32,011 nucleotides of DNA. Source: Candidatus Zambryskibacteria bacterium RIFOXYD1_FULL_40_13. GTDB lineage: Bacteria; Patescibacteriota; Minisyncoccia; Phycocordibacterales; DATDWN01. The stretch spans positions 1-32,011 of the forward strand of contig MHWY01000007.1 in assembly GCA_001824295.1 (NCBI GenBank), written 5' to 3'. Positions 11,531-21,562 of this stretch are shown piece after piece (positions within the stretch are counted from its first letter, which is position 1; the number at the start of each line of letters is the position of its first letter). The notes beneath the pieces are model-generated. The model saw only the letters and a list, made by a program, of their open reading frames with translations. It did no database searches and was not told the origin of the DNA. Made by a program: the position numbers and the translations under genes.

Positions 11531-11645
11531 CCCCACCCTCGGTGGTTAGCCAACATTACATGTTCGGTACACCTTGTCAGCTTTTTCATTCGCTTTGCTC
11601 TGAAAAATCAAGGCAAGGTCTTGCGAAGCCATAACATGGCTTCTC

Positions 11646-11679
11646 ACCCACCGCAGACAACCTCCGGTGGGTTTTCTGT
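11646..11679 (+). terminator. hairpin terminator
   Basis: CCCACCGcagacaacctcCGGTGGG then TTTTCTGT. Confidence 0.6.
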
Positions 11680-16241: not shown

Positions 16242-16387
16242 ACTCCTATTATACCATCTGGCACAACAAGCCTTCAACCCACAAAAAACATTGCATTCTT
16301 GTATATTTTTGGTATTATCTTACTAGTTTAATGTAAAACGTTAAACTAACATTCTGCGATAGCTCAGTCGGTAGAGCGCCTCCCTGT

Positions 16388-16955
16388 GTCGTAGGTTCAG
16401 TGGTATACTTATACTATGTATACCAAGAAGAAAGAAACTAGAACCTATGCTGATCGCGCCGAGTATATGCGTATGGCAGTTAAACGAAGAAGAAGAAAAC
16501 TTCGTGAAATGGCCAGAGCATCGAAAGGTGATAAATGTGCGATATGTGGTTATGATAAGTGCGCAAGAGTGCTCAGTTTCCATCACATCAACCCCTCAAA
16601 AAAAGATTTTTGTCTTTCTGAAAGGGGTCTTACCCGCTCATGGGAAAAGATAAAGAAGGAAATTGATAAATGTGTTCTATTGTGTGCAAATTGCCACGTT
16701 GAAGTACATGACGGCATTACGCAGCTTCCAAAAGAAATTTTGGTTGAAAAATGAGGTGAATTGCTGGAAGCCCAATCCAAATAAATTGGAGGGTAATCAG
16801 CAGCCAAGTCCCAAGAGAAATCAAGGGAAAGGTTCAGAGACTATCTCGAAAGAGAGTACTCGGTATTACTTAAAATAATACCCAGGAAGCGCCTCACCCG
16901 TCGATTCGTCACGGTGATGATATAGTCCATACCTTAAGTAATTAAGGATAAAATG
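16388..16955 (+). other. group I intron in the tRNA anticodon loop
   Basis: 5' exon ends in U, intron ends in G. Core motifs GGTTCAGAGACTAT (P7 5' strand) and GATATAGTCC (P7 3' strand), AATCAGCAGCC (P4/P6-type). Possible P1: CCUGU with GUAGG. Confidence 0.88.
16416..16754 (+). CDS. intron-encoded HNH homing endonuclease
   Basis: CAICGYDKCARVLSFHHINPSKKDF...CVLLCANCHVEVHDG; wholly inside the intron. Confidence 0.88.
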   Translation: MYTKKKETRTYADRAEYMRMAVKRRRRKLREMARASKGDKCAICGYDKCARVLSFHHINPSKKDFCLSERGLTRSWEKIKKEIDKCVLLCANCHVEVHDGITQLPKEILVEK

Positions 16956-16990
16956 TAAGGAGGATGTCCCAGGTTCGAGCCCTGGTCGCA

Positions 16991-17178
16991 GAGCAAATGA
17001 AAGAGCGCCTTTGTGGCGTTTTTTCATTTGCTCTGCGAAACAAAGCGAAGCTTTGTGCCCAGGGCTCGAACAGATTGGCGGTCTACGGGCGCAGTGGCGA
17101 CTGTCGCCAATCTGCGTTTTGAATTCTGACGAGAGGCGACGAGTCAGAATTCAAAAAGAGCACCCTGGTCGCAAAGCT
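16991..17178. repeat. multi-hairpin island-flanking element, copy 1
   Basis: 80 bp (16991-17070) identical to 21328-21407, then hairpins 17071-17114 and 17117-17156, then CCCTGGTCGCAAAG. Confidence 0.85.
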
Positions 17179-17220
17179 TCTTATCGATGATGATGCGTGA
17201 ATATGCTTCGTTCATAAAAT

Positions 17221-17403
17221 TTATTTTGTCTTGGTCTTCGCCATAAACTTCTCAAACTCAGTGCGATCAATCCGGTACTCCTTACCGATCTTATGAGCGA
17301 CAAGCCGGCCGGCTTTGATGTACCGGTATATGGTCATCACATTGACCGACAGAAGCTCGGCCAATTCCGTAGGCGTGTAGTATGCTTGCGGTTCTTTTTT
17401 CAT
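17221..17403 (-). CDS. excisionase/MerR-type helix-turn-helix protein
   Basis: YYTPTELAELLSVNVMTIYRYIKAGRLVAHKIGKEYRIDRTEFEKFM. Confidence 0.85.
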   Translation of the reverse strand: MKKEPQAYYTPTELAELLSVNVMTIYRYIKAGRLVAHKIGKEYRIDRTEFEKFMAKTKTK

Positions 17404-17465
17404 GGCTTTTGTGTCTCTAAATCATACTTTACTTTGATTGACATTACAATACCGACGCGAGTAGA

Positions 17466-19016
17466 ATGAAGACCAAGATGAGTATTTCAGATTTAATAAC
17501 TTGGATAAAAAACTTCTTCAAGAAGGAAGATAAAACAGCTCTCCAACTTTACACCAAAGAGTATTTGGAGTACTTCGACCATCTTTTTAATCGCGCAGCC
17601 AATGCCAATGGTTTTAACTATCTCTACACAATTTTACGTGTAGAAGGAATGACTAGCGGTCATTGGGATGCATTTGTCGAAGCGGAAGATACTGCTATGG
17701 ATTTCAGCAAACTTCTCCGAAAGATGGGGAAAAATGAGGAGAAGAGGAAAATTAGAATGGCTCTATTTTTGTACTGCCACTCTACTGAGATGTCAGTTCC
17801 ATATGAAGTAATTGCAAACCTTTTACGGGTATCGATGGATCAAGAGTACAAGATGTATCCATTTGCTCATCTAATTAGAGTAGAGAAGTCAAAAAACAAC
17901 TTTTTCGCAAAGCGACATTTGCCGTATCCTAAACAAAAAATTAAATACATCAAGGAGTTAGCTGCTACCGCAGGTGAAGAAAAGATCGGAGAGATTTTTG
18001 ACAGTTTCTTTCGCAACGATGTTAGGAACGCTTTTTATCACTCGGACTACACGATTACCGATGATGAATTCAGAATAATTCAAGGTGCTGAGTTAGGCCA
18101 AGAAGTTATTTCTCTCGAAGAAATCTCAGAAATTCTCGCACGTTGCTTCGCTTTCTACTCTGCTTTTTTTATTACATATAATCGTATTAGAAAAGGCCTT
18201 GCCGAGGGTCAGCGTTACCAGAGAATGCCAAACTATGAAGTTCTCGAGCTCTTGTCAGACAAGGACGAGGGACTAACAGGTTTCAAGATCCACTTTCCCA
18301 ATGGAGGTCATGCAATGTTTGAACGTAAAAAATATGAAGGCACCAAGGGTGTGAATTTCATGATTGAAGAAGAAGGGATAAGTTTACACGTTGGTGAACT
18401 CAGCAGCTACAATAATGCAACTGGTTGGTTCGTCGAAGGAAAGCCCTTTGTGCAACTCGGCACGAGATACAATCGTGTGGGACATTGGTACCCGATTGTT
18501 TTTCGCAGAAACTCTCAGTCCCTACAAACCAAAGCCCATCAAACGACAACAGATAAAGTTGTGCAGGGCTGTTTGTTCTACATTTACGCAACAGGCCATA
18601 TGGCTGTTGAATTCGTAATAAAATCAAAATCGGCACTTTTTGAGGGCGATATCTTGTCACTACCTCTATCAGGTAAAAAGAAAAATATAACTGTACATAA
18701 GGTTGCGGAAACTCCAAGTGGTAAATTTATTTACGATGCCACATTCCATCTAGACGAAAGCGACCCCGCAACAGTACGCGCAGCTCTCGATGAAATAGAG
18801 AAATTAATTGCAGAATTCAAAATAAAAGACGGTAACCTTCGTTGGCGATTAAAATACCAACTCTACGGTAGTCCTAGTGATAATGATGTTGAACCTAATG
18901 CTGACGGTTCCTTTACTATCGTACTTAATATGGATGACCCGCGGCACACCATGGTGGCCTCAGACTTAACCATGTTTCCAAAATCTGATTGGAAAATTAA
19001 AGAAGAGTGGATCTAA
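17466..19016 (+). CDS. hypothetical protein with HEPN-like motif (Rx4H)
   Basis: RNDVRNAFYHSDYTI contains RNAFYH; first gene of a tightly packed four-gene run. Confidence 0.6.
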   Translation: MKTKMSISDLITWIKNFFKKEDKTALQLYTKEYLEYFDHLFNRAANANGFNYLYTILRVEGMTSGHWDAFVEAEDTAMDFSKLLRKMGKNEEKRKIRMALFLYCHSTEMSVPYEVIANLLRVSMDQEYKMYPFAHLIRVEKSKNNFFAKRHLPYPKQKIKYIKELAATAGEEKIGEIFDSFFRNDVRNAFYHSDYTITDDEFRIIQGAELGQEVISLEEISEILARCFAFYSAFFITYNRIRKGLAEGQRYQRMPNYEVLELLSDKDEGLTGFKIHFPNGGHAMFERKKYEGTKGVNFMIEEEGISLHVGELSSYNNATGWFVEGKPFVQLGTRYNRVGHWYPIVFRRNSQSLQTKAHQTTTDKVVQGCLFYIYATGHMAVEFVIKSKSALFEGDILSLPLSGKKKNITVHKVAETPSGKFIYDATFHLDESDPATVRAALDEIEKLIAEFKIKDGNLRWRLKYQLYGSPSDNDVEPNADGSFTIVLNMDDPRHTMVASDLTMFPKSDWKIKEEWI

Positions 19017-19026
19017 CTGAAAAACA

Positions 19027-19941
19027 ATGTCTGACCCGAAAAACCAACATACCATTCCTCAGTGCTATCTAAAGCAGTTCGTGGATCCGAAGGTACCAAG
19101 TAATTTCGGACCATGCGTTTGGATTTTTGAACGTAAGAGTAAGCGCGGAAAAAGAAAGAACGTCAGGAGTGTGCTTACAGAGACCGATGTATACACTTTG
19201 CAAGGTGATTACTCGATTGAAAAGTCGCTTGCCCAACTAGAGAGTGAGTATGCGGTTATCTTCGAAAATAAGATCAAAAACAAACTACCTCTAACGCCCT
19301 ACGAGCACACTATCTTCTGTGCATTCGTTGCGGCCATGTTGCAACGAACTCTAAAACAAAAGGAGCATATTGAGAACCAAATGGATCAGATGATCGGCTG
19401 GGCGAAGCAGCTCGAAATGGTACATGGAGCGAAACCAAAGTCATCGATTGCTTGGGAGGAGGCAAAAAAGGATGCCCACAAAATTAGTGTTGTGGAAATG
19501 GTGCCAGATATCGCAAAAATCCTCTCTAAGATGAATGTGGCCTTCCTTTGTACGAAGAGTAAGAGGGTGTCGTTTATAACCTCGGACTCTCCTGCATACC
19601 TTTTCAATAGCCAATTGCAATTCCAGCGCTGGTTTGCGCCAGCGTTCGGGCAGAAGCATGTCGAAATCCGGATGCCGCTCTCGCCAGAGATTTCCGTATG
19701 TTTTAGTTGGATCAATAACCTGCGTGGCTACTTGGTAGCGACCGAGGACATGGTACACAACGACAACCGAATGGTGTTCGGATACTCTCACCAGTATTTC
19801 ATTGCAAACTCTCAGAAACTGAAACGGCGCTGGTTCCGGCGTCTACCCTTGGACCCAGTATTTATTTGGCGTTTCCTAAAGAACAAGACGCCGATGTGGA
19901 TCGCCGATATTCGTCGTAAGTACCGTAAACACCATGTCTGA
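19027..19941 (+). CDS. DUF4238 family protein
   Basis: N-terminal SDPKNQHTIPQCYLKQFVDP matches the QHxxPxxYLxxF signature I associate with DUF4238. Confidence 0.75.
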   Translation: MSDPKNQHTIPQCYLKQFVDPKVPSNFGPCVWIFERKSKRGKRKNVRSVLTETDVYTLQGDYSIEKSLAQLESEYAVIFENKIKNKLPLTPYEHTIFCAFVAAMLQRTLKQKEHIENQMDQMIGWAKQLEMVHGAKPKSSIAWEEAKKDAHKISVVEMVPDIAKILSKMNVAFLCTKSKRVSFITSDSPAYLFNSQLQFQRWFAPAFGQKHVEIRMPLSPEISVCFSWINNLRGYLVATEDMVHNDNRMVFGYSHQYFIANSQKLKRRWFRRLPLDPVFIWRFLKNKTPMWIADIRRKYRKHHV

Positions 19942-20863
19942 TCGAGAAAAACCAAACAAAGCAAGAGCACTTTTCGACCGTGGAGAATACCCCGAAGCGC
20001 GAAAGTTGCTCGAGGGAATCACCACAAAAGACCCGTCAATTCGGATCAATGTACTTTCAGCTCTTATAGGGGTTCTTGATCATGTGTCGGAAAATGAGAA
20101 GCTCTTAGCTGTTGCAAACGAAGGAATCGAAGTTGCTACTATCGCAGGCAATAATACAATGCGGAGTTATTTTTTGGGAAAGAAGTGCTTCTTTCTAATG
20201 TCGAATCTCTCTATGATTATCTACCGACAAAAGAACCTAACACTCTCGGCACGGGTATTTGAGTGGATCGGCTTCTCATTGGAGCGCGATAAAAATGAGT
20301 ATGAGGCGATTGGAGAGGAGCGTAAAAAACTTGAGAAAGAAATCGACTTGTCGCTCGAGACCGTTATCGATGAAGTAGAACGCGACTCTGATCATGACTT
20401 CAGAGGCCATCAGTTTTCCACCATCGGCGATGCCTACAGCTCAAAGTACTTGGCAGACAAGCTCGACTTTCAGGATGGCGGAAAGTACAAAAGTAAAATT
20501 GCCAACTTATATTTAGTGAGGCGTTGGAATCTCGATAGGTACCTCTACGGTAAAGACGTACGACACAAAATCGACCAGTCCCGAGATAGTTGCATCAAGT
20601 ACTTCGAGCGATCGATCGTAGAGTTTGGACTTGCTGGAAAAAAGTCAGAGCAGGCGCATGCGATTTACAATCTCGCAGTGAAGATGCAATTGTTCAATTG
20701 TTTCCGACGAGCAAAGAAACTACTAACAGAAGCGCGGACGATGGCGGAATCGATAAATGAGAACCGACTGCTTGATAAAATTACAAAACTCGAGGTGTCA
20801 GTAACGGATAGGAACCGCAACATCAGGGACTACGTTTCAGAAATGGGCTTAGACATGCCTTAA
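19934..20863 (+). CDS. TPR-like alpha-helical repeat protein
   Basis: ARALFDRGEYPEARKLLEGI...AHAIYNLAVKMQLFNCFRRAKKLLTEARTMAES; overlaps the upstream gene by 8 nt. Confidence 0.6.
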   Translation: MSDREKPNKARALFDRGEYPEARKLLEGITTKDPSIRINVLSALIGVLDHVSENEKLLAVANEGIEVATIAGNNTMRSYFLGKKCFFLMSNLSMIIYRQKNLTLSARVFEWIGFSLERDKNEYEAIGEERKKLEKEIDLSLETVIDEVERDSDHDFRGHQFSTIGDAYSSKYLADKLDFQDGGKYKSKIANLYLVRRWNLDRYLYGKDVRHKIDQSRDSCIKYFERSIVEFGLAGKKSEQAHAIYNLAVKMQLFNCFRRAKKLLTEARTMAESINENRLLDKITKLEVSVTDRNRNIRDYVSEMGLDMP

Positions 20864-20871
20864 CAACTACC

Positions 20872-21276
20872 ATGGGAACTTCAACCATATTCTCAATTCT
20901 GCCAAATGATTTTTTAATACAACTCGTGGCGATGACTGGAAAGTCCGTCGCGGGAATGTTTTGGCAAGCAGTGACAGTGCTCTGGTCCGGCTATTGGCCT
21001 TACATTTTACTAATAATCGTTTTGATCGTTGTGTACGAACTACTCACATGGAATGGTGGGTGGCACTACAACTCACGCAATGGCTTTTCGCCTGGGTTTA
21101 ACCGCTTGGTGGGTAGTGGTGTGTTCGCACTTTACTCGGCGATCTTCTTTGCTTTTATTCACTTTGTTTTTGGAGACAGCATTTACCTTGAACAGTATTG
21201 GCCGTACCTGGTTCATGCTCTGGCTTTCCCGTTAACGTGGCTAACTCTGCGTAAAATCGGCTTCTGGGTGTATTAA
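20872..21276 (+). CDS. small multi-TM membrane protein
   Basis: Hydrophobic helices YILLIIVLIVVYELL, LYSAIFFAFIHFVFG, LVHALAFPLTWLTL. Confidence 0.6.
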   Translation: MGTSTIFSILPNDFLIQLVAMTGKSVAGMFWQAVTVLWSGYWPYILLIIVLIVVYELLTWNGGWHYNSRNGFSPGFNRLVGSGVFALYSAIFFAFIHFVFGDSIYLEQYWPYLVHALAFPLTWLTLRKIGFWVY

Positions 21277-21327
21277 AAATCTCTAGTTTGATACCATTGC
21301 ATATGTTCTTACCTCGTTGAGCATGCG

Positions 21328-21513
21328 GAGCAAATGAAAGAGCGCCTTTGTGGCGTTTTTTCATTTGCTCTGCGAAACAAAGCGAAGCTTTGTGCCCAGG
21401 GCTCGAAGGAATCCACGGTTTACGCTTGCAACAGCAAGTGTCGTGGATTCCCGTTTTCAAATCTAATGAGCGACGGCGAATTAGATTTGAAAAAGAGATC
21501 CCTGGTCGCAAAC
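21328..21513. repeat. multi-hairpin island-flanking element, copy 2
   Basis: 80 bp identical to copy 1, then hairpins 21408-21451 and 21454-21493 with different stems, then CCCTGGTCGCAAA. Confidence 0.85.
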
Positions 21514-21548
21514 AGAACAGGTGTACAGAATCTGTAGGATTCGAGACC

Positions 21549-21562
21549 CCTGGTCGCAGAGC
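21549..21562 (+). repeat. putative right attachment-site repeat of tRNA 3' end
   Basis: CCTGGTCGCAGAGC, identical to 16981-16994 at the tRNA 3' end. Confidence 0.6.

Follow-up and report, generated by a model that had tools for sequence, protein, structure and literature searches.

What are the two multi-hairpin sequences that flank a 4.3-kb island in the window (the whole stretch of 32,011 nt analyzed here), and why do their stems differ while remaining paired? A repeat search identified the direct repeat 16988-17175 / 21325-21512 as two element copies with 81% identity over 188 nt, and direct reading placed an identical 80-bp block at 16991-17070 and 21328-21407. Both the positions and the 80 identical bp that an earlier note on this DNA had given were thus confirmed. 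Between the copies, 6 of the 10 pairs in the outer stem of hairpin A and 4 pairs in hairpin B were changed, every change was compensated, and the hairpin B loops were alike at 9 of 12 positions, all as that note described. One point of that description needs correcting: the inner stem of copy 1 is not perfect, one of its positions being an unpaired G.A. Folded as single-stranded DNA, the two copies gave a three-way junction (z = -7.7 and -8.0) whose closing stem is tRNA-derived in both.

Both copies lie 3' of a tRNA-Asn(GTT) gene that ARAGORN missed without introns and found with introns allowed. This upstream gene with its group I intron had gone unmentioned, as had an inverted tRNA copy within the 80-bp block, a direct tRNA copy 3' of hairpin B, and a type II relative at 11552-11646 on the minus strand. 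The features of the window are as follows.

11552..11646, minus strand: type IIb unit (TGAG-h1-GCAAGACC-hpC-GGTGTAC-hpD), not next to a tRNA (model R3, 45.4 bits, E 1.7e-9; sequence)
16353..16994, plus strand: tRNA-Asn(GTT) gene with a 568-nt intron at 16388-16955 that splits its anticodon loop (ARAGORN, introns allowed)
16416..16754, plus strand: HNH-like intron ORF, with a weak Pfam match below cut-off (PF01844, E 0.0016, 19 bits against a cut-off of 21.4)
16682..16948, plus strand: group I intron catalytic core within tRNA-Asn (Rfam RF00028, 81.5 bits, E 4e-20)
16974..16992, plus strand: X1, the T54-A73 stretch of tRNA-Asn from the T-loop to the acceptor end, which the element both mirrors and repeats (sequence; rule from 115 units)
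16991..17037, plus strand: terminator-like palindrome of copy 1, whose 3' arm extends into a sequence complementary to the tRNA acceptor strand (inverted repeat)
17041..17055, plus strand: small hairpin h1 (CAAAGCGAAGCTTTG) of copy 1 (sequence)
17059..17070, plus strand: X' of copy 1, an inverted tRNA T-arm copy with the end ..CTCGAA (sequence)
17071..17114, plus strand: hairpin A of copy 1, with 10 bp, a 4-nt bulge, 8 bp and an ANNA-type loop (core alignment)
17117..17156, plus strand: hairpin B of copy 1 (core alignment)
17158..17175, plus strand: X2 of copy 1, which repeats the tRNA 3' end in direct orientation and has the 2-nt AC insertion that is typical of type I (sequence)
21328..21374, plus strand: terminator-like palindrome of copy 2, identical to that of copy 1 (repeat search)
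21378..21392, plus strand: h1 of copy 2 (sequence and repeat search)
21396..21407, plus strand: X' of copy 2 (sequence)
21408..21451, plus strand: hairpin A of copy 2 (core alignment)
21454..21493, plus strand: hairpin B of copy 2 (core alignment)
21495..21512, plus strand: X2 of copy 2, a degraded tRNA-Asn 3' end (sequence)
21517..21549, plus strand: type II unit remnant, GGTGTAC and hairpin D (model R3, 26.5 bits, E 1e-4)
21544-21562, plus strand: third copy of the tRNA-Asn 3' end, after the type II remnant (direct repeat)

Between the copies, the island carries genes for an HTH_17 protein, a DUF4238 protein, and a protein with weak TPR matches (Pfam), together with one protein and one small protein that have no Pfam match. 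No recombinase was recognized in a Pfam search of its proteins.

Reading the copies together with their tRNAs gave the order X1-(terminator)-X'-core-X2, 3' of the tRNA. X' is the reverse complement of T54-A73 of the adjoining tRNA itself and terminates exactly at T54; R57-A73 of the same tRNA recurs as X2, to which type I adds 2 nt, AC. A terminator-like palindrome usually lies between X1 and X'. In the family of genomes to which the window genome belongs, h1 divides X' into acceptor and T-stem parts; it is missing from some copies in a distant genome (G042). With X' and X2 as complementary arms, a strand that carries X', core, and X2 folds into the three-way junction. An own X' (at most 1 mismatch in 12) was present at 47% of 200 sampled tRNA loci, a sample enriched for matches in which this value is not a frequency, as against 2.3% with the tags of other tRNAs. 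The end of X' tracks the start of the T-loop, being GAA for TTC in 112 of 113 cases and GCA for TGC in 2 of 2. We also considered X' as a plain copy of the tRNA 5' strand, as in a tandem tRNA duplicate, and rejected this on the T-stem and T-loop: at T-stem positions that are not Watson-Crick pairs, X' agrees with the 3' strand's complement in 19 cases, with the 5' strand in 5, and with neither in 10, and the T-loop complement GAA/GCA fits a reverse complement only. The model search proposed in the earlier note revealed many homologues in Patescibacteria that adjoin tRNA genes; at 46 of the 60 tested loci a tRNA on the same strand ends at most 130 nt upstream of the unit, and several of the remaining loci were visibly displaced from a tRNA or beside one that the script had missed.

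The core position is filled by type I (the window copies), type I' (GGAGCGGG[T/C]ACC..GGTCGCGAG), type II/III (hpC - GGTGTAC - hpD, with loop TGTAA), or type IV (GGAAGGGGTCGGGAAAC..). Type I has 8 copies in the window genome, including some that a DNA search found on other contigs, and about 50 in relatives; its two-hairpin core measures 93-100 nt, with compensated stems and fixed loops. Six copies of the window genome (the two in the window and four more) align ungapped over a 100-nt core, laid out as 9 nt, hairpin A (10 bp, the 4-nt bulge GTTT/GTCT, 8 bp, and the ANNA-type loop), 2 nt, hairpin B (14 bp, centre GRCG), and 5 nt. In this alignment 99% of the 192 cells were paired and 17 of the 32 pairs showed double changes, whereas shuffles gave 6.8 +/- 1.8 such pairs and none of 500 reached 17; sliding the partner by one column reduced pairing to below 50%. 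Chance is excluded as the source of the type I covariation, and the suggestion of a maintained fold with exchangeable stems holds beyond both shuffles and slides. For type II/III, 65 distinct sequences were 97.2% paired, with double changes at 22 of 23 pairs and a covariation score of 0.667 against 0.179 in the control, in an alignment that was fitted to model R3 and is hence biased towards structure.

Model R1 (type I) matched in 16 of 61 genomes, model R2 (type I') in 102 of 384 genomes of the class, and model R3 (type II/III) in 43 of the 61 relatives, with a maximum of 32 copies per genome. In a sample of the phylum, R3 matched in 10 of 381 genomes, all of the same order. Viral contigs were also searched and no element copies were found; one pattern match was judged to be due to chance, there being no tRNA and no X'/X2 arms in its stretch. 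Cores were kept between genera at Ser-tRNAs, which form the only clear isotype lineage; as a general rule, isotype-specific core lineages fared poorly (Mantel-like r 0.06, with 261 of 2000 permutations as high). In the stretches scanned with Rfam 15 at gathering and relaxed thresholds, only tRNA, rRNA, and group I intron scored above gathering, and the sub-threshold matches rli52, snR40, and Plastid-ycf2 were judged to be chance. Literature searches, with preprints and most subscription journals outside their coverage, returned no prior description of the element. The initial impression that this is no described family stands, and we conclude that the element family is real, widespread across a class of ultra-small Patescibacteria, and apparently undescribed.

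Signs of mobility came from several loci. In one relative (G057), the start of msrA is duplicated as two identical 70-bp copies with a 91-nt type II unit between them; the second copy runs into msrA (PF01625) and leaves the gene intact. The window genome carries a broken tRNA-Ile copy that adjoins the intact tRNA-Ile and holds an inverted unit in its anticodon loop and a direct unit before the T-arm. Broken copies of tRNA-Glu, tRNA-Ala, and 5S rRNA likewise carry a unit with the intact gene alongside, and a unit was also present at the start of a GH1-like gene (identified by eye). At fMet, the loop of a type IV hairpin holds a type II unit, and this type of hairpin is unfilled at tRNA-Gln(CTG). 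Orthologous tRNA-Lys(CTT) loci have a type II core in the window genome and a type I core in G008, behind identical h1 and X'. Exact tandem duplicates of units occur in G041 and G038. Counting against mobility, flanking duplication was detectable at only 3 of 15 type IIb copies. Nor has type I jumped recently, because no genome holds a near-identical pair of its cores and the closest pairs (94%) come from different genera. Compared with MITE-like elements, small copies are dispersed and target duplication occurs (the msrA insert and the scattered copies); terminal inverted repeats specific to the element were not found, the terminal arms being target-specific, and duplications had no fixed length, at about 20 to 70 bp or none found.

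Beside tRNA genes, the units lie throughout on the tRNA strand and on the 3' side, which invites the reading that they are tRNA-like structured RNAs, with an acceptor- and T-stem-like P1 and two hairpins replacing the T-loop, involved in processing, decay, or regulation of the neighbouring tRNA. P1 does repeat the tRNA's own acceptor and T stems, the loops are fixed, the internal loops are rich in G.A, and the conservation of the Ser-tRNA cores across genera also fits. G-T slightly exceeds A-C on the top strand (about 1-2% and 0.5-1%, outside a few fixed positions); however, wobble pairs are rarer than in the tRNA stems at the same loci, which have 6% G-U. Moreover, 87 of 115 units are located past the T-run that follows the tRNA, and an RNA accords poorly with the lack of any Rfam match, the broken gene copies, the 70-bp target duplication, and the insertions at sites other than tRNAs. 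We regard a structured RNA, one of the options in the earlier note, as unlikely; the scarce wobble and the units past the T-run argue, without proving it, for structure at the DNA level. Scarce wobble has a further reading. Quasi-palindrome correction through template switching also yields perfect pairing without wobble intermediates, and for that reason covariation alone is not proof of selection. If template switching during replication had made and kept X', X2, and the stems as neutral palindromes, the covariation would reflect a mutation process and not a function, and the near absence of wobble intermediates, the inverted and direct target copies, and the tandem duplications would all be expected. 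Yet across the class the stems change and the loops, bulge, linkers, and lengths stay conserved, a pattern that mutation alone does not yield, and identical kinds of defined core turn up at sites unrelated to one another. We find neutral palindromes distinctly improbable; the conserved loops, bulges, and lengths do argue for selection.

The position of the two window copies on either side of the island could also point to an attC-like folded single-stranded recombination site that captures cassettes, the 4.3-kb island being one cassette between two sites. The strand-specific bulges and the single-stranded fold are compatible with this. But the units have no GTTRRRY/RYYYAAC core boxes and thus no attC core-site consensus, most are without a cassette, and no integron integrase was identified, the single tyrosine recombinase of the window genome looking Xer-like by its distribution. 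Among 47 tRNA-linked units no gene cassette was found, the measured cores being 61-95 nt, or tandem cores, with no gene. The islands of G003 and G004 lie between the tRNA and the unit, one of them with its own large serine recombinase, and we consider an attC-like site very unlikely. Nor is island flanking supported as a defining trait, since most copies flank none; a function in flanking islands was set aside, as the islands of G003 and G004 merely displace the unit.

A mobile hairpin element was the best of the three options in the earlier note. On balance, we lean towards the view that the window copies belong to a class-wide family of mobile elements that are small, non-coding and non-autonomous and consist of two or three hairpins (h1 with hpA/hpB or hpC/hpD), and a mobile origin of the family is likely. 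Our best reading is that such non-autonomous hairpin elements are copied into their targets at the DNA level, by a mechanism that we infer. The element would move as a folded single strand, more likely of DNA than of RNA, and would be copied into its target through template switching or some comparable priming reaction, with an enzyme acting in trans. Copying by a template switch would explain the variable length of the target duplication (about 20 nt in the case of tRNA T-loops and 70 bp in that of msrA), the inverted target copy X', and why the target stays functional and an intact copy is retained. The combination of fixed loops and bulges with variable stems suggests that a protein recognizes the former, the stems needing only to pair. 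Type IIb units usually follow a G-rich sequence (often GGGG) and end in TTCC|TGTAAGG, and the re-entry point at msrA is GTAAGGAA. Switching at microhomology is suggested by this one clean case and several older ones, and a strand-transfer enzyme that handles its target in an unusual way is just as possible. Type IIb insertions and T-loop units have cores in common, and one mechanism may serve both. Tentatively, and with less confidence than in mobility as such, we propose a new kind of mobile element: protein-free hairpin DNA of about 90 nt that would insert into the loops of structured genes, most of all the T-loops of tRNAs, and write the target's reverse complement and another target copy beside itself so that the host gene survives, and spread through the class by a host or parasite enzyme.

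No protein is encoded by any element, and a search for an autonomous element and for a co-occurring enzyme found none, which counts against mobility. The Y1 transposase (PF01797) was unmatched in G026 (19 copies), G047 (22), G003 (13), and G011 (11), and the Y1-free genomes with many copies include near-complete ones (19-22 copies). TnpB (PF07282) was found in 2 of 61 genomes, with none in the window genome, and reverse transcriptase (RVT_1) is patchy and does not track the elements. The only tyrosine recombinase (PF00589) of the window genome is of a family, Xer-like in its distribution, that relatives free of elements have as well. Y1, TnpB, and PF00589 thus fail to track the elements too. 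The large serine recombinase of G003 is part of an island whose insertion separated tRNA-Ala from its units.

Reaching 32 copies of a single type within about 1 Mb, these elements would rank among the most abundant non-coding features of these minimal genomes, and they are placed on the most conserved genes there. If they are mobile, an element can thrive even where transposases are almost absent from the genome, and the target-copied arms would point to an undescribed insertion chemistry; if they are instead RNA, a class of RNAs linked to tRNAs has gone unnoticed. Either reading complicates the annotation of tRNAs and islands in Patescibacteria.

Several known systems share part of this picture. 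In the way it works, the element resembles small mobile hairpin repeats of the REP or mitochondrial double-hairpin kind, but it lacks defining features, among those tested, of attC sites, REP-RAYT systems, and TnpB loci. Like the islands that tyrosine and serine integrases place at tRNA genes, the insert is flanked by a direct repeat of the tRNA 3' end; unlike them, it is about 100 nt long with an inverted copy of the tRNA end, has the same core at many tRNA isotypes, and has no integrase. TnpB omega-RNA loci differ in that a TnpB gene is essentially absent from the genomes searched. As in integron attC sites, a folded strand with bulges has variable stems around conserved elements, whereas the units here lack attC boxes, end in NNTCGAA ... 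GANN(AC), and have a P1 that is a copy of the neighbouring tRNA. REP/BIME sequences with RAYT (Y1) and IS200/IS605-derived elements are likewise small, non-autonomous bacterial hairpin repeats for which single-strand recognition is likely, though the present elements do not depend on a resident Y1 gene. REP sequences are not known to target tRNAs, to carry arms complementary to their targets, or to produce long target duplications. Double-hairpin or repetitive hairpin-forming elements are found in the mitochondria of sponges (PMC2800124) and cryptophytes (PMC5910586). The host here is bacterial and the fixed cores of several types differ from theirs, and the abstracts on them report no tRNA-specific inverted and direct arms like those found here (PMC2800124, PMC5910586). 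The mitochondrial elements resemble ours as short, non-coding hairpin units that are mobile, often intergenic, and encode no enzyme (PMC2800124, PMC5910586).

The two element copies in the window bound an island at 17221-21276, and no recombinase was recognised among its genes. The products encoded between 17221 and 21276 were:

HTH_17 protein
DUF4238 protein
protein of 516 aa without a Pfam match
protein with weak TPR matches
small, unmatched protein

An island of ~8 kb in another genome, G003 (contig 5, stretch L117, 3900-12330), has tRNA-Ala as its insertion point; it encodes a large serine recombinase of 515 aa and has pushed two hairpin units away from the tRNA gene. In the window, a type IIb hairpin unit at 11552-11646 on the reverse strand is flanked by ORFs and has no link to a tRNA.

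The window tRNA-Asn(GTT) gene (16353-16994) is interrupted in its anticodon loop by a group I intron of 568 nt, within which lies a small HNH-like ORF. ARAGORN predicted a second intron-like insertion in this genome (G000), of 209 nt, in tRNA-Asp(GTC) (contig 5, stretch L094), which is possibly another group I intron. A 237-nt intron was also predicted in tRNA-Asn(GTT) of genome G012 (stretch L182), and type II units lie on either side of that gene. The small G000 genome also carries two reverse transcriptase genes, which differ in kind (stretches L113 and L114).
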